Shown here: piece by piece, positions 35,462 through 47,404 of the stretch
How positions within the stretch are numbered: position 1 is the first letter of the stretch
Layout: each line of letters starts with the position of its first letter
From: Paraconexibacter algicola
GTDB taxonomy: Bacteria > Actinomycetota > Thermoleophilia > Solirubrobacterales > Solirubrobacteraceae
Direction: 5' to 3'
NCBI RefSeq assembly: GCF_003044185.1
Contig: NZ_PYYB01000003.1
Coordinates: 62,001-126,000, forward strand
Length of the DNA: 64,000 nucleotides
Notes under the pieces: model-generated
The model's input: only the letters and a program-made list of their open reading frames with translations
What the model was told of the DNA's origin: nothing
The model's database searches: none
Position numbers and translations under genes: made by a program

Positions 35462-37099
35462 TCAGGGGGCGAGCCGGGCGACCGCGACCGGCGGCCGGAC
35501 GCCGTCCAGATGCCAGCGCGCGAGGTCCCCGCCGCGCAGCGCCGGACCGCGGAGGTTCCGGCCGCGCCCGGACGGCACGTCGAGCCGCCGGCGCAGCACG
35601 ATCCGTCCGGCCCGGCGCACGGTGACGACGCCGCGGCAGCGCCGGGCGTAGGGCCGCACGGGCGCGCGGTACGCGCGCGGGCAGCGCACCCGCAGGCGTG
35701 ACGGGGCGGTGCGGCGCGTCACGCGCAGCACCGGCAGCTGGCGGCCACGGACCTCGCAGCCACGCAGGTCGTCGACCGGGTCGACGACGACCTGGTCGAG
35801 CCCGGGGCCGCAGTCGAGCACGTCCCGGACGCCGTCGAGGGCGCTGATGCGATCGTCGCCATCCCCGCCGTCGAGCACGTCCCGAGCGGTCCCGCCGACG
35901 AGCCGGTCCTCGCCGCCGAGGCCTCGCAGCGTCACCGGCGTGATGCCGCCCGCCAGGAGGTCCGCGGCGGTCGCCGTGCCCTCGACGATCTCGACGTCCC
36001 GACCGATCCGGTCGCGCTCCCCGGACTCGCCGTCGTCGGCGATCTTGTCGAGCGTCACCCGCACCGGGCCGCCGACGAAGATCGAGGCGTACGCCACCCG
36101 GTCGACTCCCGCCCCGCCCTCGACGGTGTCGTCCCCGCGGTCCCCGAGGAGGACGTCGTCCCCTCCCCCGCCGCGCAGCACGTCGTCGCCGCCGCGGCCC
36201 GACAGCCGATCGGCGCCGTCGGAGCCGACGAGCAGGTCCGGGCCCTCGCCGCCGATGAGCTCCTCGATCCCCAGGAGGTTCCCGGTCGCCGCGCCGCGCG
36301 GTCCGTCGTTGGCGCGGCCGTCGAGACTCAGGACCATCGGGACGGACCCGAGGTGGCGCGCCACGTCCCCATCCCCCGCGCCGCCGTCGCACACGTCGGG
36401 ACCGGGCCCGCCGAGCAGGCAGGCGTCGTCGCCGGGCCCGCCGTCGAACCGGTCCGCCCCCGCCCCGAGGTCGACGACGTCGTCCCCGCCCCCGCCGATC
36501 ACGGTCTCGTCGGCGTCGGTCCCGCGGACGAGGTCGTCCCCCGCACCGCCGACGACCACCTCGACCTCGCGCACGTCGTCCTGCTCGCCCAGGCGCCCGT
36601 CGTCCTCGCCGCCGCCGAGCGTGACCGCCACCCCGTCGTCGTGGCGGCCGTCGTCGTAGCGGACCGTGTCGCGCCCGGGGCCGCCGACGAGCCGCTCGGG
36701 GCCGGCGCCGCCCGTGAGCTCGTCGTCGCCCGGGCCGCCCGACAGCAGCGTCGGCCGGGCGACCCGCGTGACGAGCCGGTCGTCCCCGTCACCCGCCTCG
36801 ACCCGCACCACCTCGACGGGCGCCGCGGCGCACACGACGGCGAGCGGCGTGTCGGGGGCGGCCGCGCAGCCGTCGCGGGCGACCGGTGGGGTCGCGGCGT
36901 CGGTCACGCGCACGAGCTCGCCCTGCGGCTCGAGGAGCAGGTCGTTGCGCTCGCCGGGCGCGGCGGTCACGGTCAGCGCGCCGTCCCCGACCGCGACGGT
37001 CGCGGCGGCGGCGGTCCCGGGGAGCGCCAGCCCCACGAGCAGCGCGAGGACCGAGACCCTCCCGTGCCGCCGGACCCTGCCGCCCATGGCACGGACCAT
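35462..37099 (-). CDS. Exported RTX-like calcium-binding repeat protein
   Basis: A 545-residue protein with an N-terminal signal peptide (about 15-33, ending TAAAA). Residues about 115-440 hold many GGxGxDxL/V-type nonapeptide repeats such as GGPGDDELTGGAGPERLVGG, which form a Ca-stabilised beta roll when calcium is present outside the cell. Several repeats are degenerate (GGPGPDVCDGG). The C-terminal about 90 residues are Arg-rich with RCRGVVTVRRAGR-like strands and no LPXTG. A second ATG at 37087 is an alternative start. It lies 10 bases after trpS. Function unknown; structural, adhesive or enzyme-associated roles are all possible. Confidence 0.8.
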   Translation of the reverse strand: MVRAMGGRVRRHGRVSVLALLVGLALPGTAAAATVAVGDGALTVTAAPGERNDLLLEPQGELVRVTDAATPPVARDGCAAAPDTPLAVVCAAAPVEVVRVEAGDGDDRLVTRVARPTLLSGGPGDDELTGGAGPERLVGGPGRDTVRYDDGRHDDGVAVTLGGGEDDGRLGEQDDVREVEVVVGGAGDDLVRGTDADETVIGGGGDDVVDLGAGADRFDGGPGDDACLLGGPGPDVCDGGAGDGDVARHLGSVPMVLSLDGRANDGPRGAATGNLLGIEELIGGEGPDLLVGSDGADRLSGRGGDDVLRGGGGDDVLLGDRGDDTVEGGAGVDRVAYASIFVGGPVRVTLDKIADDGESGERDRIGRDVEIVEGTATAADLLAGGITPVTLRGLGGEDRLVGGTARDVLDGGDGDDRISALDGVRDVLDCGPGLDQVVVDPVDDLRGCEVRGRQLPVLRVTRRTAPSRLRVRCPRAYRAPVRPYARRCRGVVTVRRAGRIVLRRRLDVPSGRGRNLRGPALRGGDLARWHLDGVRPPVAVARLAP

Positions 37100-37109
37100 A
37101 CGCCGCGGG

Positions 37110-38129
37110 TCAGCGGCGCGGGCCGACGCCCATGACCTCCCGGACGTCCGCGAGGACCCCGGAGGCGATCGCGCGGGCCTTCTCCGCCCCGGCGCCGAGC
37201 GCCTCCTCGATGGCGGCCTCGTCGGGCCGCAGCTCGGCGTAGCGCTCGCGGACCGGCGCGAGCAGGCCGTCGACCGCCTCCGCGGTCGCGAGCTTCAGGT
37301 CGCCGTACCCGCGGGCGTCGGCCATCGACGCCTGCGCGTCCGCGATCGTGGTACCGCGCGCCACGGCCAGGAGCTCCAGCAGGTTGCTGACCCCGGGCTT
37401 GGCCGCGCGGTCGAAGCGGATCTCGTTGTCGGAGTCGGTGACCGCGCGCTTGAACTTCTTCACCAGCGCCGCGGGCTCCTCCAGGACGTAGAGCGTGCCC
37501 TCGACGCTGCTGCTCGACGTGGACATCTTCCGCGTCGGCTCCTGCAGGTCCATGATCCGGGCGCCGACCTCGGGGATGCGGTGCTCGGGCACGACGAGGA
37601 CCGGCTCGCGCTCGGCCGCGAACCGGGCGTTGAAGCGCAGCGCGATGTCGCGCATCAGCTCGACGTGCTGGCGCTGGTCGTCGCCGACCGGCACCTCGGT
37701 GGCGCGGTAGGCGAGCACGTCGGCGGCCATCAGCGTCGGGTAGAGGAAGAGCCCGGCGGACACGAGCTCGCGCTGCTGCGCGCTCTTGTCCTTGAACTGG
37801 TGCATGCGGTTGAGGTCACCGTGCGCGGTGACGCTGCACAGCAGCCAGCAGAGCTCGGCGTGCTCCTGCACGTCGCTCTGGCGGAACAGCACGCAGCGGG
37901 CGGGGTCCAGCCCGGCGGCGAGCAGCAGCGCGGTCGTGTCGTAGAGGCGCTCGCGCAGCTCGGCCGGGTCGTACTGGACCGTCGTGGCGTGCAGGTCGAC
38001 GATGCAGAAGATCGCGTCCCCGCCGGCCTCGACGGCCCGCTCCTGGCCGGCGACGTACTGCCGGATCGCCCCGACGTAGTTGCCGAGGTGCTTGCGGCCG
38101 GTGGGCTGGATCCCGCTGAAGATGCGCAT
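37110..38129 (-). CDS. trpS: Tryptophanyl-tRNA synthetase
   Basis: TrpRS charges tRNA-Trp. The 339-residue class I enzyme opens MRIFSGIQPTGRKHLGNYVG; the HIGH box reads KHLG. VPVGDDQRQHVELMRDIA follows. The KMSKS loop reads KMSTS with extra serines, a form of the loop also met in actinobacterial TrpRS, so it is not by itself a sign of inactivity. A TAGGCT box 9 bases before the ATG marks a promoter just past the secreted-protein operon. Confidence 0.95.
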   Translation of the reverse strand: MRIFSGIQPTGRKHLGNYVGAIRQYVAGQERAVEAGGDAIFCIVDLHATTVQYDPAELRERLYDTTALLLAAGLDPARCVLFRQSDVQEHAELCWLLCSVTAHGDLNRMHQFKDKSAQQRELVSAGLFLYPTLMAADVLAYRATEVPVGDDQRQHVELMRDIALRFNARFAAEREPVLVVPEHRIPEVGARIMDLQEPTRKMSTSSSSVEGTLYVLEEPAALVKKFKRAVTDSDNEIRFDRAAKPGVSNLLELLAVARGTTIADAQASMADARGYGDLKLATAEAVDGLLAPVRERYAELRPDEAAIEEALGAGAEKARAIASGVLADVREVMGVGPRR

Positions 38130-38138
38130 CGGCCGGTC

Positions 38139-38144
38139 AGCCTA
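38139..38144 (-). promoter_or_regulatory. TAGGCT -10 box of trpS
   Basis: TAGGCT ends 9 bases before the trpS ATG at 38129 and is not part of a stop codon. No Shine-Dalgarno lies between. It suggests a leaderless or near-leaderless transcript. Confidence 0.45.
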
Positions 38145-38197
38145 CCCCTCGCGCCCGGTCCCTCGACCCGTGGTGGGGGACGGGCGGCGCGTCGTGG

Positions 38198-38216
38198 CGC
38201 CCGCCCTGCGCGGGCG
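38198..38216 (-). terminator. Terminator hairpin of the secreted-protein operon
   Basis: CGCCCGC/GCGGGCG, a perfect 7-bp stem with a 5-base loop, starting 15 bases past the stop at 38232. An alternative bulged stem overlaps it just downstream (GGGCGGCGC with GCGCCCGCCC). It lies upstream of the trpS promoter. Confidence 0.55.
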
Positions 38217-38231
38217 GACGCCGGTGCCGTC

Positions 38232-39548
38232 TCAGCGGACGACGATCGGGATGTTGACCCGCGCCGCGTTGCCCGTGCTCGGGACGTAGCGGAAGCGGAT
38301 CGTGCGCGTCGAGTAGTTCGTCGGGTTGAACCAGGTGATCGCGCCGCGCTGGCGCACCGTGGCGCCGGACTTCGCCGCGAAGCGGCCGCGGACGATGTTC
38401 AGCACCTCGACCGCGGTCCCGGCGGGCGCGACGACGCGCTTGCCCCTGTCCCTGCAGGTGAGCGTGCCGCGGAAGCGGTAGCGCTTGCCCTTGGCGAAGA
38501 TCGCCGCCCCGGAGGACGTGCGACCGACCGGCTGCTGCGACAGGCGGACCGTCAGCCGCGGCACGAGGCAGCGCCCCGGATCCGCGGTGAGCGGGAGCGC
38601 CTGGCCGAGCACGCTGCCGTCGGGCAGCCGGTTGACGGCGGGCGAGTTGTCGATCCGCACGTCGCGGTCGAGGATCGTGCTGACGTTGCCCGACAGGTCG
38701 GTCAGCCGCAGTACGAACCGGTGCTGCCCGTCGGCGACGGTCCGGGTGTCGAAGCTGAACGACGGGCTCGCCGTGGTCGGGCAGGCGACGCCGGCCGGCA
38801 GGTCCTTCCCCGGACGCGCTGGGCCGATGTCCGTGCAGGCCCCGGCGAGGTCGACCGACTGACGCAGCACGCCGTCGACGAACAGGTCCGCCCGCTCGAG
38901 GCCGGCACCCTGGTCGCTGGTGGTGGCGCCGAAGGTCATGACGTTCCGGGCGGGCTCTCCGAGACCGCCGACGGCGCCGTCGGGGGCGTTGTCGTCGCTG
39001 ACGGTGACGCTCAGCGACGCGAGGTCCACGACCGCACCGGCCCCGCCACACGTGGTGGGGAAGCCGGCCTCGCAGCCGAGGGACGCCTCGGCGAAGGGGC
39101 CGGCCGCGACGCCCGACGCGGTGGCGGTCCCGGCGGCCGCGCTGGTGGTCTGGACCTCCTCGAGCAGGCTGCCGGACGCGGAGCCGAAGCGGTACAGGCC
39201 AGGGGTGCCGGATCCGCCGAACCCGCCGAGCGTCCGCTGCGCGGCCGCGGTGGTCAGGCGCACGCCGCCGGGAGGCACGATCCGCCACGACGCCGCGCTG
39301 CCGGTCCCGGGCGCCGAGCTGGTGAACGCCAGCCGCAGGCCGTCGTTGGCCCCGGTGCCGGAGCACCCGGCCCCGGTGGTGGTCGCGGTGGCGTTGCCGG
39401 CGCTCAGCGCCTGCAGGCCGCTCGTTCCGAGCGCCTGGCCCGCGGGGCCGTGGCAGCCCCAGTAGGTGACGGTTCCGGCCTGCGCGAGGCCGGTCGTGGC
39501 GGTGAACGCCACGACGGCCAGCGGGGCCACGATCATCGTCTTGCGCAT
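38232..39548 (-). CDS. Exported WGCHGP-family protein, copy 2
   Basis: A 438-residue exported protein with signal peptide at about 1-24 (LAQAG end). The mature start has TYWGCHGPAGQALG, then GAGCSGTGANDGLRLAF. The middle has DLFVDGVLRQSVDLAGACTDIG and HRFVLRLTDLSGN. The C-terminal part has KGKRYRFRGTLTC and ITWFNPTNYSTRTIRFRY. It is beta-rich and Thr/Gly/Ala-rich with several paired cysteines, with no anchor and no enzyme motif. It is a full-length paralogue of the gene at 42327-43688, including the AGGAGAAC Shine-Dalgarno. It is the last of seven secreted genes. Function unknown. Confidence 0.78.
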   Translation of the reverse strand: MRKTMIVAPLAVVAFTATTGLAQAGTVTYWGCHGPAGQALGTSGLQALSAGNATATTTGAGCSGTGANDGLRLAFTSSAPGTGSAASWRIVPPGGVRLTTAAAQRTLGGFGGSGTPGLYRFGSASGSLLEEVQTTSAAAGTATASGVAAGPFAEASLGCEAGFPTTCGGAGAVVDLASLSVTVSDDNAPDGAVGGLGEPARNVMTFGATTSDQGAGLERADLFVDGVLRQSVDLAGACTDIGPARPGKDLPAGVACPTTASPSFSFDTRTVADGQHRFVLRLTDLSGNVSTILDRDVRIDNSPAVNRLPDGSVLGQALPLTADPGRCLVPRLTVRLSQQPVGRTSSGAAIFAKGKRYRFRGTLTCRDRGKRVVAPAGTAVEVLNIVRGRFAAKSGATVRQRGAITWFNPTNYSTRTIRFRYVPSTGNAARVNIPIVVR

Positions 39549-39592
39549 GGTCTCAGTTCTCCTGGAGTCGTCGGATCGGTTCGCGTGACCGA

Positions 39593-41020
39593 TCACGGAC
39601 CGGTGGCCAGGACGGTGAAGGTCAGGTTCTTCGCGTACGCGCCGGTGCGGAGCGCCTCGTTGGCGGCGATCCGCTGGCGGAGGTCGACCGAGGTCGTCTG
39701 CAGCGTCGGCCCGACGACCGGGCTGGTCAGCGTCGTCAGCGTCAGCGGGTTGCGGCCGATCGCCTCGTACCCGGCGGCACCCACGCGCGCCTCCAGCTTG
39801 TTCTGCAGCAGCCCCGGGGTGCCCGGCGCCGAGTTGACGAGGTACCCCGGGTCGTTGCCGAGGTCCTGCACCGTGATCGTCGACGGCCCGGCGTCGGACG
39901 TGACGCTCAGGGTCAGCGACCCGGTGTAGTCGAGGTCGACGTCCGCCGGCCGGAAGCCGAGCCCGCCGTTGACCAGCTCGCCGCTGCCGGCGATCGACAG
40001 CGACACGCTGGGGATGACCACGGTGTAGCTGCCGCTCGCAGTGGTCGACGTGCCCCCGTTGGAGGCGGTGACCACGATGTTGTGGGTGCCCAGCGACGTG
40101 GTCGGCAGCAGGTCGCCGTCGGCAATCGGGGTGCCGTCCACGGTCGCGGTGCAGCTCGTGGCGTTGGTGCAGGCGAAGTCGATCGGCACGCGACGGTCGA
40201 GGCCGATCCGCTCGCCCAGGATCGGCCGGGAGATCGTCGCGGTGGGGTTCGCGACCGGCGGGGAAGCGGGGATGACCGTGCCCGTCGTGCCGCCGGCCAG
40301 CTGGTACGCGACCGTGCGGGACGCCCCGGCCGGGATCGCGACGCGGAACTGGAGCAGCATGCGCCGGTCACCCTGCCCCGTCAAGATCGGGGACGAGCTG
40401 TAGTCGAGCGTCGGGGAGATGTCCTCCGCCTCGCCGGCGCCGGACCGCCCGAAGATGTTCAGTCCACGAAGGACGTAGAAGATGCCGCTCGGATCGTCCT
40501 GCCGGACGCCGTCGGTGCCCTGCGCCGTCGTCGTCTCGTCGGTGCTGTCGAAGTTTGGTGAGGACAGCACGTCGATGTCGACGTACATGTAGAGGTCGTA
40601 GGTGCGGTCGGTCGCCTCGGTGTTCTGGACCGTGATCCACTCGGTCCAGTACCCGGACGCCCCGATGTCCGTGAGCGTGCCGTGCCGCTCGACCTGGGCG
40701 AGCGTCGGCCCCCCCTGGGAGATCGTCCCGCTCGAGACCACGGTGTCGCCGGACGCGACGCCCGCCGAGGTCGAGATCGTGCGCTTGGCGTTGTCGACCC
40801 CGGTACGCGCGTACGTGAGACTCGTCCGGAAGATGTGGTTCGCACCCAGGACGTTCAGAGCCCCCAGATTGCCACTCGACCCGGTGGTCGCTGTCGAGTT
40901 CCCCGCGACCGCCGTCGCAGCCGACGCCCCGGCGGGCGCGACGATGCCCGCCGCCGTGGCGGCGAGCGCCAGGCCGAGGGTGAGTCGACGCCGGATCGGC
41001 GTCCGTCCGCTGCTCTTCAT
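39593..41020 (-). CDS. Exported two-part protein with a C-terminal A-type module
   Basis: A 475-residue exported protein. A signal peptide with basic start (RRRLTLGLALAATAAG) ends near residue 35. The N-terminal half (about 36-250) is a beta-rich domain with YWTEWITVQNTEATDRTYDLYMY and FRVAIPAGASRTVAYQLAGG. The C-terminal half (about 265-475) repeats the plan of the protein at 44482-45363: TATVDGTPIADG...LGTHNIVVTASNGG, then SLTLSVTSDAG, a GLLQNKLEARV segment and the end ANEALRTGAYAKNLTFTV. The ATG at 41020 gives the best signal peptide, with an ATG at 41035 as alternative. Function unknown. Confidence 0.75.
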   Translation of the reverse strand: MKSSGRTPIRRRLTLGLALAATAAGIVAPAGASAATAVAGNSTATTGSSGNLGALNVLGANHIFRTSLTYARTGVDNAKRTISTSAGVASGDTVVSSGTISQGGPTLAQVERHGTLTDIGASGYWTEWITVQNTEATDRTYDLYMYVDIDVLSSPNFDSTDETTTAQGTDGVRQDDPSGIFYVLRGLNIFGRSGAGEAEDISPTLDYSSSPILTGQGDRRMLLQFRVAIPAGASRTVAYQLAGGTTGTVIPASPPVANPTATISRPILGERIGLDRRVPIDFACTNATSCTATVDGTPIADGDLLPTTSLGTHNIVVTASNGGTSTTASGSYTVVIPSVSLSIAGSGELVNGGLGFRPADVDLDYTGSLTLSVTSDAGPSTITVQDLGNDPGYLVNSAPGTPGLLQNKLEARVGAAGYEAIGRNPLTLTTLTSPVVGPTLQTTSVDLRQRIAANEALRTGAYAKNLTFTVLATGP

Positions 41021-41059
41021 GATCAGTCCCCACATGGTCCGTTCGTCCCCGTTTCCTGC

Positions 41060-41605
41060 TCAGACCCTGAGCGTGAACGTGACGCGCCCTGAACCAAGCT
41101 GCGTCACGTCGTAGATGTATCCCTGACGTCCCGTGTCAGAGGTGGTCCCGTCCCCGGCCGCCTCAGTGCCGTAGCACGGGAAGCGGTCCCCTGCCTTGAC
41201 GGCGCGGCGGAACGGGCAGGTGAAGTCGGCGATCGCCCCCTGCTTCGTCACCAGGTCCTCGGCGATGCGGTACTCGATGTCGCGCAGGAGCAGCCCGAGG
41301 GGGGTCGCGACGAACCCGCCCTTGGTCGACGTGAACCGTACGCGGATGGTCGTCGCGTCGCCGGTGGCGAAACGCGCCTTGCACCGCGAGATCGAGCCGG
41401 GCGCGTAGCGCACGGTCGTGTTGCACTTCACGCTCGTGGCGGTGATGCGGAAGGTCGTCGTCAGACGATCGGCGAGCCGCTTGGCGAAGACCGTCCCCTT
41501 GACGGTCGTGCCGGTGGTCGTCGTCGATGTCTGTCCGTGCGTGGCGGCCGGCGCCAGCAGCAGGGCTGCGGCGGCGAGCGCGGCGATGGTCGTCCGTGTG
41601 GGCAT
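41060..41605 (-). CDS. Small exported protein with paired cysteines
   Basis: A 181-residue exported protein with signal peptide at about 1-24 (ATHGQ end), then a Thr-rich linker. A core has SVKCNTTVRYAPGSISRCKARFA, with two Cys about 16 apart followed by alternating strands TTIRVRFTSTKGG. A second pair follows, in FTCPFRRAV and FPCYGTE. The spacing resembles DUF4333-type domains of actinobacterial secreted proteins, but this is only a resemblance. It lies between the collagen-like gene (20 bases) and the two-part gene (39 bases). Function unknown. Confidence 0.65.
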   Translation of the reverse strand: MPTRTTIAALAAAALLLAPAATHGQTSTTTTGTTVKGTVFAKRLADRLTTTFRITATSVKCNTTVRYAPGSISRCKARFATGDATTIRVRFTSTKGGFVATPLGLLLRDIEYRIAEDLVTKQGAIADFTCPFRRAVKAGDRFPCYGTEAAGDGTTSDTGRQGYIYDVTQLGSGRVTFTLRV

Positions 41606-41625
41606 GCTGCTCCTGGTCTCCTCGG

Positions 41626-42330
41626 TCACGGCACCGGCGGTGCGATCGTGACCATGACGTGCTTCTGGCGCAGGTCCTTGATCTGCTGGCCCTTGCGGAC
41701 GCGCTGCGTGAGCTCGATCCGCACGGGGCTGTTGGTGATCGCGTCGTCGAACTCGACGAGCGGCGGGCGCACGGGCTCGCTGAGCGCCTGGCGGCGGCCG
41801 TCGGCCGAGGCCACGATCGGGAGTCCGAGGCGGCCGGCGCTCGTGGCGATCCGGCCCCGGGCGCTGCCCGAGCTGTCCGCGTCGTCCGCGCCGATCGTCA
41901 CGCGATCGGTCGTGGTGACCCGGACGACGAGCGTGCTGCGCAGCTCGCGCAGCTCGCCGACGAGGTCGGGCGTGAACTCCCAGCTGGTCGGCGTGCTGAT
42001 CGCTGCGCCGATGATCCGGCCGACGACGAGGCCGACCGCGCCACCGAGGTCCCCTGGATCGTCGGCCGCTGGCGTCGGCGTGGGGGTCGGCTCGGGCGTC
42101 GCGCTCGGGGCGGGCGCCGGGTCGGCAGCGGGCTGCGGCTGCGGCTGCGGGTCCGGGGCGGGGCCCGACGGCCCCGAGGGGCCCGTCGGGTCCGCCGGGC
42201 CGGCGACGCCGGTGGGTCCGGTCGGCCCCGTCGTGGCGGGGTCGGGGTCCTGCGCCCACGCGGGAGCGCCGGTACCGACCATCGCCAGGACCACGAACAG
42301 CAGCAGGGATGTCAGCCCGCCGCGCTTCAC
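41626..42330 (-). CDS. Exported collagen-like / proline-rich protein
   Basis: A 234-residue exported protein with signal peptide at about 1-26 (APAWAQ). Residues 35-58 are eight Gly-X-Y-like triplets (GPT, GVA, GPS types, one with Gly replaced by Asp). An extended Pro/Gln/Ala/Thr stretch to about residue 90 follows (PQPQPQPAAD, PTPTPTP). A hydrophobic segment GAVGLVVGRIIGAAIS and a globular part follow, ending VRIELTQRV...VMVTIAPPVP. The GTG start overlaps the stop of the preceding gene by four bases. It looks like a stalk plus head protein. Function unknown. Confidence 0.7.
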   Translation of the reverse strand: MKRGGLTSLLLFVVLAMVGTGAPAWAQDPDPATTGPTGPTGVAGPADPTGPSGPSGPAPDPQPQPQPAADPAPAPSATPEPTPTPTPAADDPGDLGGAVGLVVGRIIGAAISTPTSWEFTPDLVGELRELRSTLVVRVTTTDRVTIGADDADSSGSARGRIATSAGRLGLPIVASADGRRQALSEPVRPPLVEFDDAITNSPVRIELTQRVRKGQQIKDLRQKHVMVTIAPPVP

Positions 42331-43688
42331 CGCACGATGATCCGCTGGGTCACGCGCGCCGCCGCGCCCGTGCGCGGGCGGTAGCGGAACTCGATCTCAC
42401 GGGTCGTGTAGTTCGCCGGGTTGAACCAGGTGATCTCGCCGCGCGTGCGCACCGACGCCCCGGACTTCGACACGGCCCTGCCGCCGATGCGGTTGACGAC
42501 CTCGATCGCCGTTCCGCGCGGGGCGATGACGCGCTTGCCGTTGGACAGGCAGGTCAGCTTGCCGCGGAAGCGGTAGCGGCGACCCTTCTTGAAGATCGGC
42601 ACGCCCCGCCGGTCACGGCTGGCGGGCCGCTGCGACAGCGCCATCGTCAGGCGCGGGCTGAGGCAGCGGCCGGGGGCCGAGGTCAGCGGCAGCGACTCGG
42701 CACCGACGAGGCCCTCCTGGAGCGCGCCGCCGATGTTGATGGCGACCGACGTCGAGCCGGGCTGGACCGCCGAGTTGTCGACGCGGACGTCGCGGTTGAG
42801 CAGCTCGACCGCGTTGCCGGAGAGGTCGGTGAGCACGACGAGGAAGCGGTGGTTGCCGTTCCCCAGCGTCGTGGTGTCGACCGCCAGCGCGGCGTTGCCG
42901 GTCTTCGGGCAGGCGACGCCGATCGGCAGGTCGTTCCCGCCGCGGCTCGGGGCAATGTCGGCGCAGGCCGGACCGGCCAGGTCGGTCGCCTGGCGCAGCA
43001 CACCGTCGACGAACAGCTCGGCCTTCTGCAGCCCGAGCCCCTGGTCGCTGGCCTGGACGTTGATCGTGGCGACCCCGCGAGCCGGCTCGGTGAGCCCCGC
43101 GATGCTGCCGTTGGGCGGGTTGAGGTCGTTGACGGTCAGCGCGAGCGAGCGGATGTCGACGACCGGCCCGCCGGGCACCGCGCACGTGGCGGGGGCGTCG
43201 CAGCGCAGCTGCGCCTCGACGAAGTTGCCGGCCGCGTTGCCGGCGATCGTGGCCTGGCCGTTGGCACCGGACTCGTTGGTCAGCCGCTGCTCGAGCGCCG
43301 TTCCCGCCGCGTCACCGGACCGCAGCCGGTAGGCGGCGGGCTGGGCGCTCGCGTTGCCGAAGCCGCTGAGCGTCCGCTCGATCGTCGCGCCGATGACGGT
43401 CACGCCGCCCGGGGAGGTGATCCGCCAGGCCGCGAAGGTGCCGTTCGTGGGCGAGTTGCCGTTGAACGACAGCCGCAGCCCGTCGCTCGGGCCGGAGCCT
43501 GAGCAGCCGGCACCGTTGGTGTTGGCCGTGGCGCCCGAGGTACCGAGTGCCTGCAGGCCGTCAGCTCCGAGCGGCGCGCCGGTCGGGCCGTGGCAGCCCC
43601 AGAGGGTGGCGGTGCCCGCCTGAGCGGACCCGGCCGCCCCGAGGGCGATGACCGCCGCGAGCGGGGCCGTGAGAAGGATGTTGCGCAT
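42327..43688 (-). CDS. Exported WGCHGP-family protein, copy 1
   Basis: A 453-residue exported protein with signal peptide at about 1-24 (SAQAG). The mature start LWGCHGPTGAPLG is followed by GAGCSGSGPSDGLRLSF, ELFVDGVLRQATDLAG, HRFLVVLTDLSGN, KGRRYRFRGKLTC and ITWFNPANYTTREIEFRY. These run in the same order and spacing as in the protein at 38232-39548, so the two are tandem-type duplicates separated by three other genes. The Shine-Dalgarno AGGAGAAC is also shared. Cysteines recur at matching positions. No enzyme or anchor motif is seen. Confidence 0.78.
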   Translation of the reverse strand: MRNILLTAPLAAVIALGAAGSAQAGTATLWGCHGPTGAPLGADGLQALGTSGATANTNGAGCSGSGPSDGLRLSFNGNSPTNGTFAAWRITSPGGVTVIGATIERTLSGFGNASAQPAAYRLRSGDAAGTALEQRLTNESGANGQATIAGNAAGNFVEAQLRCDAPATCAVPGGPVVDIRSLALTVNDLNPPNGSIAGLTEPARGVATINVQASDQGLGLQKAELFVDGVLRQATDLAGPACADIAPSRGGNDLPIGVACPKTGNAALAVDTTTLGNGNHRFLVVLTDLSGNAVELLNRDVRVDNSAVQPGSTSVAINIGGALQEGLVGAESLPLTSAPGRCLSPRLTMALSQRPASRDRRGVPIFKKGRRYRFRGKLTCLSNGKRVIAPRGTAIEVVNRIGGRAVSKSGASVRTRGEITWFNPANYTTREIEFRYRPRTGAAARVTQRIIVR

Positions 43689-43720
43689 CGGTGGTTCTCC
43701 TGATGGAGGTCTCGCCGCGG

Positions 43721-44482
43721 TTACCCGCCGACGACGACCTGACGCTTGACGGTGGTCACGACACGCGATCCCTGGGTGAGACGGACGGTCAGCGTGTACT
43801 TGCCCCGCGCGAGGCCGCGCGTGGTGGTGAGCGGGACGTCGACGGCGTAGCCGGGAAGCACCCGGACGGCCTGGATCGAGCCCGCGCGGCTTCCGGCGGC
43901 GTTCGTGAGCCGGAAGTCCCCGGTGACGGGGGTCGCGGTGTTGCCGGCGTTGCGGACCGCGAGCTGCAGCTGGCGCGAGCGGACGGCGACCTGCCCGCCC
44001 TGGAGCGCAAGGCGACGACGGGTCGCGGAGGGGTTGAGGCGCAGGGCGCCGATCAGCCGGTAGCTGACCTTCACCTGGCCCTTCTTCTGCCCCCGCGGCG
44101 TGGCGACGAACTCGACGTTGCCGTAGAGCGACCCCGCGGTCGGGACCTTGCTGAGGTCGACGCGGACCGTGCGCGAGCTCCGTGCGGGCATCGCGAAGGT
44201 CCGGGTGGAGAGCTTGATGCCGGAGAGCGTCCGGCGACGGTCGGGCGTCACTGCCCCTGTGCGGGCCTGCAGCCAGGGACGCGCCGCGACGCGGACGTCC
44301 ACGGTCCGGCTGAGACCGTTGGTGATCGTGATCTGCCCCACGCGACCGCTGGTCGCCTGGCGCTCGATGACCGAAGGAGAGAGCGTCAATCCGGACGCCG
44401 CCCCCGCGTCCTGCCGCCCGAGAGCGAGCGGCAGGACGAAGGCGACGCCGGCGAGCCCGGTGAGGAGCTGCCGGCGATGCAT
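43721..44482 (-). CDS. Exported two-domain Ig-like protein, chaperone-like
   Basis: A 253-residue exported protein. Its N-terminus HRRQLLTGLAGVAFVLPLALG has a twin-Arg-like start and a hydrophobic core. Domain 1 (about 30-150) opens LTLSPSVIERQATSGRVGQITITNGLSRTVDVRV and has FAMPARSSRTVRVDLSKVP; domain 2 (about 150-253) has LQLAVRNAGNTATPVTGDF. The order of two beta-sandwiches, with a Pro-S/T strand, a TNGL turn and a PA-R-S-R-TV strand, recalls PapD-type periplasmic chaperones and the DUF916 proteins of WxL operons. The ATG overlaps the TAA of the upstream gene by one base. The family call is tentative. Confidence 0.6.
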   Translation of the reverse strand: MHRRQLLTGLAGVAFVLPLALGRQDAGAASGLTLSPSVIERQATSGRVGQITITNGLSRTVDVRVAARPWLQARTGAVTPDRRRTLSGIKLSTRTFAMPARSSRTVRVDLSKVPTAGSLYGNVEFVATPRGQKKGQVKVSYRLIGALRLNPSATRRRLALQGGQVAVRSRQLQLAVRNAGNTATPVTGDFRLTNAAGSRAGSIQAVRVLPGYAVDVPLTTTRGLARGKYTLTVRLTQGSRVVTTVKRQVVVGG

Positions 44483-45363
44483 TACGGCGTGCTCGTCGAG
44501 AGCGTGAACAGGACCGGCATCGCGTACTGGCCGGTGCGGATCGGCTCGTTCGGGACGATCGTCTGGGTGAACGTCACGCCGACCGACTTGTTGGTGACCG
44601 GGTCGTTGATCGACGCGATCTGGACCGGCGGGTCCGACTGCATCGACGCGTTGGTCACCGTGCCGGTGATCGTCGAGTCGACCGAGGTCGAGCTGATCGC
44701 AAGCGGGGTGTTGAGCTTGTACGGGCCCGTCGCCGCGCTGTTCTTCAGGAAGCCGCGGAACGCGTTGCCCGCGGGGCTGCCCGCGTCCTCAGCGGTCAGG
44801 AACGCCTGGTCGGCGGTCGAGACGATGTTGAGCGAGAGACCACCCGAGTACAGCTCGTTGGCCGAGCTGGTGTTCGGGCGGAACGCGCCGAAGCCCGAGT
44901 TCGTCAGGACGGTCGTGGCGCTGCCCGCGGACGGGGTGAGCGTGAGGACCGGCGCGACGTTGCCGACGACCGTGGTGGTCGCGGTGGTGCTCGTGCGGAC
45001 GTCGTAGTTCACGACGAACGTGGACTGCGGGATGGTGGTCCCGTAGGACAGGATGATCGTGTGCGACCCGACGGAGCCGATGCCGGTCCCGTTGGTGGGC
45101 ACGGCGATCGGGCTGGCGCCCTGCGGCACGCCGTCGATCGTGATCGACGCGTTGGTGCCGGTGAACTCGATCGAGCCCGCCGTGCCCTGGTTGACCAGGA
45201 AGTAGTCGTTGGTGCTCGGAGCATCCGTGACGTTCTTCAGCGTCACCGACGTGCCACTGGTGGGCGAGAACACGACATCGGCAGCGTTCGCAGCGGGCGC
45301 GAAAGAGCCCACGGCAACGAGTGCCGTCGCCGCGACGAACGCGCGGCGGAGATGAGACTTCAT
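44482..45363 (-). CDS. Exported A-type Ig-like surface protein, first gene of the operon
   Basis: A 293-residue exported protein with signal peptide at about 1-27 (PAANA). The mature chain is low in charge and rich in Thr, Ser, Gly and Asn, typical of surface beta proteins. It has SITIDGVPQG, a GSHTIILSYG strand, SGGLSLNIVSTADQ, a GFLKNSAATGPYKLNTPLAI segment, and ends FTQTIVPNEPIRTGQYAMPV. It shares this plan with the C-terminal half of the protein at 39593-41020. The start has a clear GAGAGGA Shine-Dalgarno, and its TAA stop is unusual for this genome. It is translationally coupled to the chaperone-like gene. Confidence 0.75.
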   Translation of the reverse strand: MKSHLRRAFVAATALVAVGSFAPAANAADVVFSPTSGTSVTLKNVTDAPSTNDYFLVNQGTAGSIEFTGTNASITIDGVPQGASPIAVPTNGTGIGSVGSHTIILSYGTTIPQSTFVVNYDVRTSTTATTTVVGNVAPVLTLTPSAGSATTVLTNSGFGAFRPNTSSANELYSGGLSLNIVSTADQAFLTAEDAGSPAGNAFRGFLKNSAATGPYKLNTPLAISSTSVDSTITGTVTNASMQSDPPVQIASINDPVTNKSVGVTFTQTIVPNEPIRTGQYAMPVLFTLSTSTP

Positions 45364-45523
45364 GAGATTCCTCTCGTCGGACCCTCCGGGCTGCGCCGAT
45401 GTCGATGCACGCGGATTGCTGACCCGTGCACCTGACTTCCGTCCCCCGCCCCCGGCTGACCTATGGATGTTTGGACCTCCGGTCCGGGCCGCTCATCCTC
45501 GCGGTCCGAAACTGGAGATCCGG

Positions 45524-45553
45524 GTTATAGCGACTCGCGCCGACGTTCCACAA
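45524..45553 (-). promoter_or_regulatory. Promoter of the secreted-protein operon
   Basis: A -35 TTGTGG (45548-45553) and a -10 TATAAC (45524-45529) with an 18-base spacer on the minus strand. The -10 is close to consensus. It would give a leader of about 155 bases before the start at 45363. Confidence 0.5.
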
Positions 45554-45575
45554 GTCCCGGTGGATTCCCTGCACG

Positions 45576-45602
45576 AAAACCTGGTCCGTCGGACGGGCCA
45601 GG
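45576..45602 (-). terminator. Terminator with T-run downstream of gcvPB
   Basis: A 10-bp stem with one G-U pair (arms 45593-45602 and 45580-45589, 3-base loop), followed on the minus strand by TTTT (45579-45576). It is the only hairpin in the window with a real T-run. It is the second of two tandem hairpins after the gcv operon. Confidence 0.65.
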
Positions 45603-45705
45603 TGTCTCGTATCGGACGCGCGGCGGGGGAATCGCACGTCCTGCGCGGGACGAATGACGCTCATGCACCGTGTCCCACCCCACACAACGACGTGATCCAC
45701 AACGA

Positions 45706-45731
45706 CCTCGACCGCCATTCGGCGGTCGAGG
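45706..45731 (-). terminator. Hairpin terminator directly after gcvPB
   Basis: A perfect 11-bp stem (CCTCGACCGCC and its complement) with an ATTC loop, 48 bases past the gcvPB stop. It is followed by TCGTTGTGG on the minus strand. Confidence 0.65.
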
Positions 45732-45778
45732 ACTACGTCATATGTCGTGCGTACTTCTGCGCGCGCGAACGCGCCAGG

Positions 45779-47404
45779 TCAGGCCGGCAGCGGCTGCCGG
45801 ATCACCGGCTGCTTCGCCGCGGCGGCCTCGTCCAGGCGGCGGACGGGCGTCGTGTACGGCGCGTTCTGCGCGATCGAGGGGTCCTCCTGCGCCTCGCGCA
45901 GGATCGCGACGACCGCGTCGGCGAACGCGTCGAGCGTCTCCTTGGTCTCCGTCTCGGTCGGCTCGATCATCAGCGCCTCGTCGACCAGCAGCGGGAAGTA
46001 CACCGTCGGCGGGTGGAATCCGTGGTCCAGCAGCCGCTTGGCGAGATCGAGCGTCTTGATCCCGAGCTCCTTCTTCATCGGCGCGCCCGACAGGACGAAC
46101 TCGTGCATGCAGCGCTCGCCGAAGCCGAGCGGGAGGTACTCCCTGACGCCCTCGGCCTGCAGGCGGGCCAGCAGGTAGTTCGCGTTCAGCACCGCGGTCT
46201 GCGACGCCTCCTTCAGCCCCTCCCCGCCCAGCGAGCAGATGTAGGAGTAGGAGCGCACGAAGCAGCCGTAGTTGCCCTGGAAGCCGCGCAGCCGCCCGAT
46301 CGACTTCGCGCCGGGCGCCCCCTCGGGCAGGCCCTCGGCGACGAGGTCGAAGACCGGGCCGTCCGCGCTGTCGGTGCGACGGATCACCGGCGTGGGCAGG
46401 TACGGCGCGATCCGGTCGCTCACCGCGATCGGGCCGGAGCCGGGGCCGCCCCCGCCGTGCGGCTGCGTGAACGACTTGTGCAGGTTGTAGTGGACGATGT
46501 CGAAGCCCATGTCGCCCGGGCGCGACACGCCCATGACCGCGTTGAGGTTCGCGCCGTCGTAGTAGAGCGTCGCCCCGACCTCGTGGACGATCCGCGAGAT
46601 CTCCTCGATGTTCGGGTCGAAGATCCCCAGCGTGTTGGGGTTCGTGAGCATCAGGCATGCGACGTCGCCGTCGGCCTTCGCGCGCAGGTCGTCGAGATCG
46701 ACGCCGCCGTCGGCGTTGGTGCCGACCTTCACGACGGTGTAGCCCGCCATCGTCACGGTGGCCGGGTTGGTGCCGTGCGCGGTGTCCGGGGTCAGGACCT
46801 TCGTGCGGACCTCGCCGCGGTCCTCGTGGTAGGCGCGCGTGACGAGCAGGCCGGCGAGCTCCCCGTGCGAGCCGGCGGACGGCTGCAGGCAGACGTGCGG
46901 CAGACCGGCGACCTCCCCGAGCGCGCGCTCGAGGTTGTACATCAGCTCCAGCGCGCCCTGCGAGCGCGACGGGTGCTGCAGCGGGTGCAGCCGCGCGTGG
47001 CCGGGCAGGCCCGCGACGCGCTCGTGCAGCCGCGGGTTGTGCTTCATCGTGCACGAGCCGAGCGGGTAGAAGCCCGAGTCGAGGTCGAAGTTGCGGCGGC
47101 TGATGCGCACGTAGTGGCGCACGAGCTCCGGCTCGGACACCTCGGGCAGCCGCGGCGGCGCCATGCGGCGCAGGCCCGCGGGCAGGAGCTGCTGCGGGTC
47201 GACCTGCGGCACGTCGAGCTCCGGGCACGTGAACGCCCGGCGGCCGGGCGCGCCCTTCTCGAAGATCGTGACGACGCGGTCGCGCTGCATCGGCGTCTCC
47301 GCCGTGGGGACGGACGGCGCCGCGGGCGACGCGGTGCCCGCGTCGGTGCCGAGCTCGCCGTCGGCGAACTGGCTGGCGGTCTGGGCGGACGGCAGCTCGC
47401 TCAT
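45779..47404 (-). CDS. gcvPB: Glycine dehydrogenase (decarboxylating) subunit 2
   Basis: Subunit 2 of the P protein of the glycine cleavage system, carrying the PLP lysine in HYNLHKSFTQPHGGGGPG. Other conserved stretches are GFYPLGSCTMKHNPR, CLQPSAGSHGELAGLL, TPDTAHGTNPATV and YDGANLNAVMG. The length of 541 is about 50 more than usual because of an Ala/Ser/Thr-rich N-terminal stretch before FEKGAPGRRAFTCPELD. The ATG at 47404 overlaps the gcvPA stop by four bases. P protein releases CO2 from glycine and hands the methylamine to lipoyl-GcvH. Confidence 0.96.
   Translation of the reverse strand: MSELPSAQTASQFADGELGTDAGTASPAAPSVPTAETPMQRDRVVTIFEKGAPGRRAFTCPELDVPQVDPQQLLPAGLRRMAPPRLPEVSEPELVRHYVRISRRNFDLDSGFYPLGSCTMKHNPRLHERVAGLPGHARLHPLQHPSRSQGALELMYNLERALGEVAGLPHVCLQPSAGSHGELAGLLVTRAYHEDRGEVRTKVLTPDTAHGTNPATVTMAGYTVVKVGTNADGGVDLDDLRAKADGDVACLMLTNPNTLGIFDPNIEEISRIVHEVGATLYYDGANLNAVMGVSRPGDMGFDIVHYNLHKSFTQPHGGGGPGSGPIAVSDRIAPYLPTPVIRRTDSADGPVFDLVAEGLPEGAPGAKSIGRLRGFQGNYGCFVRSYSYICSLGGEGLKEASQTAVLNANYLLARLQAEGVREYLPLGFGERCMHEFVLSGAPMKKELGIKTLDLAKRLLDHGFHPPTVYFPLLVDEALMIEPTETETKETLDAFADAVVAILREAQEDPSIAQNAPYTTPVRRLDEAAAAKQPVIRQPLPA

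Follow-up and report, generated by a model that had tools for sequence, protein, structure and literature searches.

A candidate surface-display module with a pilin-like C-terminal domain in Paraconexibacter algicola and related Solirubrobacteraceae

A 64,000-nucleotide stretch of the Paraconexibacter algicola genome (contig NZ_PYYB01000003.1, positions 62,001 to 126,000; hereafter the window) contains seven consecutive minus-strand genes, g1 to g7, which span positions 38232-45363 and are all predicted to encode exported proteins. The products of g1, g4, and g6 end in a common domain of about 135 amino acids, which we named SUB, whereas g2 encodes a two-domain partner whose modeled fold resembles both WxL-interacting proteins (WxLIP) and the chaperones of chaperone-usher pili. 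Genes for SUB and the g2 partner recur side by side in related genomes, indicating that the seven genes are a conserved system and not a chance grouping. The operon probably encodes an usher-less, Sec-dependent module for non-covalent surface display in Solirubrobacteraceae, similar to WxL/WxLIP but with a distinct C-terminal domain. The genes and the three copies of SUB are as follows.

44482-45363, minus strand: g1, exported protein of 293 amino acids with a small N-terminal beta region and a C-terminal SUB
44485-44949, minus strand: SUB of g1, residues 139-293, ending in TLSTSTP before the stop; profile E value 4e-15
43721-44482, minus strand: g2, 253 amino acids, two-Ig-domain chaperone-like/WxLIP-like partner without a C-terminal transmembrane helix
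42327-43688, minus strand: g3, exported three-part protein with a W-x-C-H-G-P N-terminal domain and two beta domains; paralogue of g7
41626-42330, minus strand: g4, exported protein with a GTG start, a Pro/Gly-rich linker, and a C-terminal SUB
41629-42027, minus strand: SUB of g4, ending in IAPPVP before the stop; profile E value 1.7e-5
41060-41608, minus strand: g5, exported DUF4333 protein, ATG at 41608; two repeats, Cys in two pairs
39593-41035, minus strand: g6, large exported protein with an unassigned N-terminal part and a C-terminal SUB
39596-40018, minus strand: SUB of g6, ending in TVLATGP before the stop; profile E value 7e-22
38232-39548, minus strand: g7, ATG at 39548; paralogue of g3

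The intergenic gaps from g1 to g7 were, in order, -1, 32, -4, 17, 24, and 44 bases, and each product began with a hydrophobic signal-like segment. Genes, gaps, and N-termini thus bear out the initial annotation, made from the letters of this DNA, which had proposed a seven-gene minus-strand operon of signal-peptide proteins with gaps of 44 bases or less. No clear transmembrane segment followed the signal in any of the seven proteins (19-residue hydropathy past residue 45 was 1.64 or lower, with the peak at residue 95 of g4). The LPXTG motif was absent from the C-termini as read, as was a C-terminal hydrophobic segment, placing these proteins outside the sortase-anchored class.

The SUB and g2 profiles used to search the window were built from other genomes only. 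The SUB profile matched g6, g1, and g4 with the E values listed above and nothing else in the window, and it matched none of the reversed-sequence decoys. The initial annotation had seen that a two-part protein, g6, re-uses the fold of g1; this was correct but incomplete, as g4 shares the same C-terminal domain. The collagen-like label that g4 had been given was too strong, since the protein has no more than about eight Gly-x-y triplets, after which comes a Pro-rich linker. All three window copies of SUB have Pro as the last residue before the stop, and SUB was C-terminal in nearly all cases seen. Pfam and NCBIfam scans assigned SUB to no family, and NCBIfam returned nothing useful for g1 to g7 either. 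In the AlphaFold2 (AF2) model of g1, the predicted local distance difference test score (pLDDT) was about 80-95 for the SUB part and mostly below 50 for the N-terminal part; neither this part of g1 nor its counterpart in g6 could be assigned. The best matches of the g1 SUB model in the PDB were the pilins CfaE (Z score 9.3) and CsuA/B (Z 8.5), which places the modeled domain among pilin-type Ig subunits; matches with Z below 8 were given little weight. PDB sequence searches with the g2 and SUB profiles yielded insignificant matches only.

The g2 profile matched g2 alone in the window (3.5e-74). The AF2 model of g2 (pLDDT 86) comprised two beta-sandwich domains, in agreement with its first description as a two-domain chaperone-like protein. 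The closest structures were WxLIP chains of Enterococcus faecium, 9I25_C (Z 16.0 over 218 residues, root-mean-square deviation 4.7 A) and 9I1Y_A (Z 15.9), which share with the model the two tandem Ig-like domains of the WxLIP fold. The next-best structures, CfaA (Z 14.2) and the FimC/Caf1M types (Z about 13), have the PapD-type two-domain chaperone fold. The chaperone-plus-subunit logic suggested at the outset is therefore matched on both sides, with g2 near WxLIP and pilus chaperones and the SUB of g1 near CfaE and CsuA/B. The kinship of g2 was also detected at the level of sequence: a profile of g2 orthologues matched a DUF916-type protein (L079_11; E = 6.9e-8), and profile-profile alignment of the g2 family with DUF916 proteins of the same bacterial family gave 4.5e-9 over 230 columns. 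The first reading of the operon as an undescribed system consequently has to be narrowed, because the g2 family has known kin in DUF916/WxLIP; no description of the SUB domain, and no paper joining WxL with Solirubrobacter, was found in the open-access literature. In the Pfam scans, g2 itself had no match to PF06030 or PF11797, and a single orthologue reached PF11797 at only 0.14, short of the Pfam cut-off. R142 and R148 of g2 were invariant in the family alignment and lie, in the AF2 model, in strand E141-150, which ends the first domain. By analogy with pilus chaperones, this strand may be the region where the subunit is held, and it offers a lead. A Tat signal in g2 (MHRRQLLTG) was considered and rejected, the RR pair not being conserved among its relatives. 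Two relatives encode fusions in which a membrane segment links a g2-like exported domain to a helix-hairpin-helix part at the C-terminus, at G151 L112:7018-8652 (Pfam HHH_3, 9.1e-20) and, judged from sequence only, at G195 L059:5193-6677.

The distribution of SUB and g2 was determined in 299 genomes of the class, numbered here with a G (the window genome is G000), taking E<1e-10 as a strong match. SUB was strong in nine genomes, and all nine were among the 12 with a strong g2 (hypergeometric 5e-15, uncorrected for genome relatedness). No convincing SUB was detected outside the class in a phylum sample of 396 genomes. The two genes were close neighbors in G000, G017, G011, G157, G272, G247, G047, G124, G151, and several Solirubrobacter genomes. 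Cassettes in which g2 is accompanied by SUB, a g3-like gene, or both were found in G017, G011, G157 (two), G272, G247, and several Solirubrobacter, where the order was mostly g3-g2-SUB-g2; S. phytolaccae, S. deserti, and S. taibaiensis were among the matches. The initial annotation had named scattered homologues as the outcome that would speak against its proposal, and the gene set was instead co-located. It is accordingly very improbable that the seven genes are an accidental cluster of generic, beta-rich secreted proteins, each with a function of its own. In favor of that reading, exported proteins with Ig-like folds abound in these high-GC genomes, and the other cassettes yielded neither g5 nor the N-terminal regions of g1 and g6; but the way in which SUB, g2, and g3 repeatedly co-locate and co-occur already contradicts it.

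The proteins that carry SUB in relatives are informative about its role. In Solirubrobacter, SUB was the last domain of a subtilase, four M14 peptidases, an amidase, an alkaline phosphatase, purple acid phosphatases, ThuA proteins (one with GSDH and CBM6), a GH10 protein, and a 3-keto-disaccharide hydrolase. A DNA pattern for the last SUB residues plus stop occurred 90, 117, 60, and 92 times in four Solirubrobacter genomes, compared with 0-1 for the reversed control. All 20 further pattern sites sampled in G266 ended an open reading frame with SUB; one was split, possibly by a frameshift. HtaA-SUB proteins were present in G017 (HtaA above the Pfam cut-off) and G011 (below it). In G011, as judged from the sequence, genes resembling those of haem ABC transporters and a gene for another protein with HtaA-like repeats lie next to the HtaA-SUB gene (L010:4145-8329), a neighborhood that suggests surface haem capture. 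That dozens of enzymes and binding proteins end in SUB speaks for a domain used in surface display or anchoring more than for a dedicated fibre. The LPXTG, PEP-CTERM, and type IX C-terminal sorting domains are likewise single conserved C-terminal domains, shared within one genome by dozens of secreted proteins that are unrelated to one another. In contrast to these, SUB is a folded domain of pilin-like type (about 135 residues) and has no membrane tail, and its partner is a PapD/WxLIP-type protein instead of a sortase, an exosortase, or a type IX machine.

Part of the same evidence could be read as an usher-less fibre, in which SUB proteins would polymerise by donor-strand exchange with g2 serving as their dedicated chaperone and g3/g7 supplying the tip or accessory components, following a logic like that of TasA/TapA or chaperone-usher pili. 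The closest folds to SUB are those of chaperone-usher pilins (Z 8.5-9.3), with the TasA fibre and TLP chains listed as well; the two-Ig fold of g2 resembles the chaperones (Z 13-14) of chaperone-usher pili, a class that includes the CfaA/CfaE, CsuC/CsuA-B, and FimC/FimA systems; and some cassettes hold a small protein barely larger than SUB (L048_11, L053_11, L057_11). However, the Solirubrobacter copies are mostly single C-terminal domains on diverse, unrelated enzymes scattered over the genome, unlike fibre subunits, and within the cassettes we noticed neither an usher-like gene nor any other gene for assembly. No usher family was found among the seven operon genes, as the initial annotation had said; usher profiles were not run on the remaining genome. 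We consider a fibre unlikely.

The display module that we favor is most like the WxL systems of Lactobacillales and Bacillales. WxL clusters encode a small WxL protein, a large WxL protein, and WxLIP together, and WxL binds peptidoglycan; AF2 predicts that the WxL sandwich is completed by a hairpin strand of DUF916 (PMC10599100). The WxL domain is always C-terminal, and more than 91% of known cases are from Firmicutes (PMC9772566). The present operon likewise combines proteins, small and large, that have one C-terminal domain in common with a two-Ig partner, whose fold is nearest to 9I25 and 9I1Y and whose family is akin to DUF916 by sequence. At four sampled loci (L083-L086), a SUB-phosphatase adjoins a DUF916-type membrane protein, one of them above the PF06030 cut-off (E=4.8e-7), paralleling the WxL genes that adjoin WxLIP. 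In contrast, SUB has neither the dual Trp-x-Leu motif nor a relation to WxL that profiles could detect, the C-terminal membrane helix is missing from g2, and the present set adds the g3/g7 family, often has enzyme clients, and occurs in Actinobacteriota instead of Bacilli.

A divergent but true WxL cluster, with SUB as a still peptidoglycan-binding WxL domain that has lost its tryptophans, is less probable again than a fibre. It would account for the shared gene logic (domain-only small protein, large protein with the C-terminal domain, WxLIP relative; PMC10599100), for the kinship of g2 with DUF916, and for the W-T-L retained by some sister subunits (L011_11, L012_11). By sequence, however, SUB was rejected as a WxL domain. 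The dual motif was absent, as had been noted at the start: g1 is free of Trp, the only Trp residues of g4 are W25 and W117, and those of g6, W126 and W129, lie outside SUB. PF13731 had no match in G000 at E<=10, and hhalign of SUB against true WxL domains of the same bacterial family gave a non-significant probability of 1.4%. The solved WxL chain of 9I25 was not among the 50 matches listed for the SUB model, an absence that by itself proves nothing. Moreover, true WxL/DUF916 pairs exist separately within Solirubrobacteraceae: in G272, WxL and DUF916 proteins above the Pfam cut-offs are encoded side by side (L078:4746-6244, L079).

The same gene logic as in WxL clusters, together with a different C-terminal domain and a helix-less partner, points to strand complementation and non-covalent display. 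Strand complementation is known for FimC with FimA and has been predicted for WxLIP with WxL. In the display module, client proteins (here g1, g4, and g6) would be exported by Sec with the pilin-like Ig domain SUB at their extreme C-terminus. The partner g2, of the PapD/WxLIP structural type, would bind SUB through beta-strand complementation and then stabilise or deliver it. Through SUB, the client would be retained non-covalently, either at the cell wall or within a SUB multimer, with the N-terminal part of the client, elsewhere a haem-binding HtaA or an enzyme, facing outward. Several observations weigh against this model. The hydropathy of the C-terminal half of g2 reached a maximum of 0.88, compared with >2 in DUF916-like relatives, so that the membrane helix of WxLIP is absent and some other element would have to fix the complex to the cell. 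The g2 gene is not adjacent for most Solirubrobacter clients; SUB and g2 are both absent from the sampled genomes of the source's own genus; and the profile-profile comparison with WxL was not significant. Finally, the SUB-g2 contact, the strand complementation, and the wall attachment are indirect inferences.

Of the remaining genes, g3 and g7 encode exported companions that are conserved and probably act as binding partners at the surface. These two were recognized as paralogues from the start and are 57% identical; long matches to g3 (E<1e-60) were confined to cassette-bearing genomes, whereas weaker matches to its domains were widespread. The product of g5, first described as a small Cys protein, does contain Cys (residues 62, 76, 131, and 145) and belongs to the known family DUF4333 (PF14230, E=1.2e-12, two stretches). 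For g3, g5, and g7, the roles are inferred. The operon is flanked by gcvPB (45779-47404) and trpS (37110-38129), and an exported RTX-repeat protein (35462-37099; HemolysinCabind 1.3e-23) adjoins trpS. The trpS-gcvPB junction is intact in the relatives G250, G017, G077, and G011, where it holds other accessory genes or none (in G250 a response regulator and an oxidoreductase-like gene; in G077 a toxin-antitoxin-like pair; no gene at all in G011), indicating that the operon occupies a variable slot. A promoter and terminators had been thought to frame the unit; a consensus scan of 37500-46500, covering sigma-70-type promoters only, returned no promoter-like and no terminator-like site and so lent this no support, and an Rfam search of 37000-46500 gave no match.

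To our knowledge, the retention of secreted enzymes at the cell in monoderm soil actinobacteria is poorly understood beyond the sortase and lipoprotein routes. A Solirubrobacter genome carries about 60-117 copies of SUB, for which there is no family model; the domain would give a location to dozens of unannotated proteins together, and it could find use as a display tag. More tentatively, SUB and g2 might form a general, unnamed monoderm counterpart of chaperone-usher assembly, in which a C-terminal sorting domain of pilin fold, served by a PapD-type chaperone or receptor of its own, would bring about 100 different secreted proteins to the surface in Solirubrobacter without an usher, a sortase, or a membrane anchor. 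If so, the WxL/WxLIP and chaperone-usher systems would be branches of a single strand-complementation principle. Because the SUB fold resembles chaperone-usher pilins and g2 resembles WxLIP and pilus chaperones, the question of how assembly by strand complementation arose becomes directly testable.
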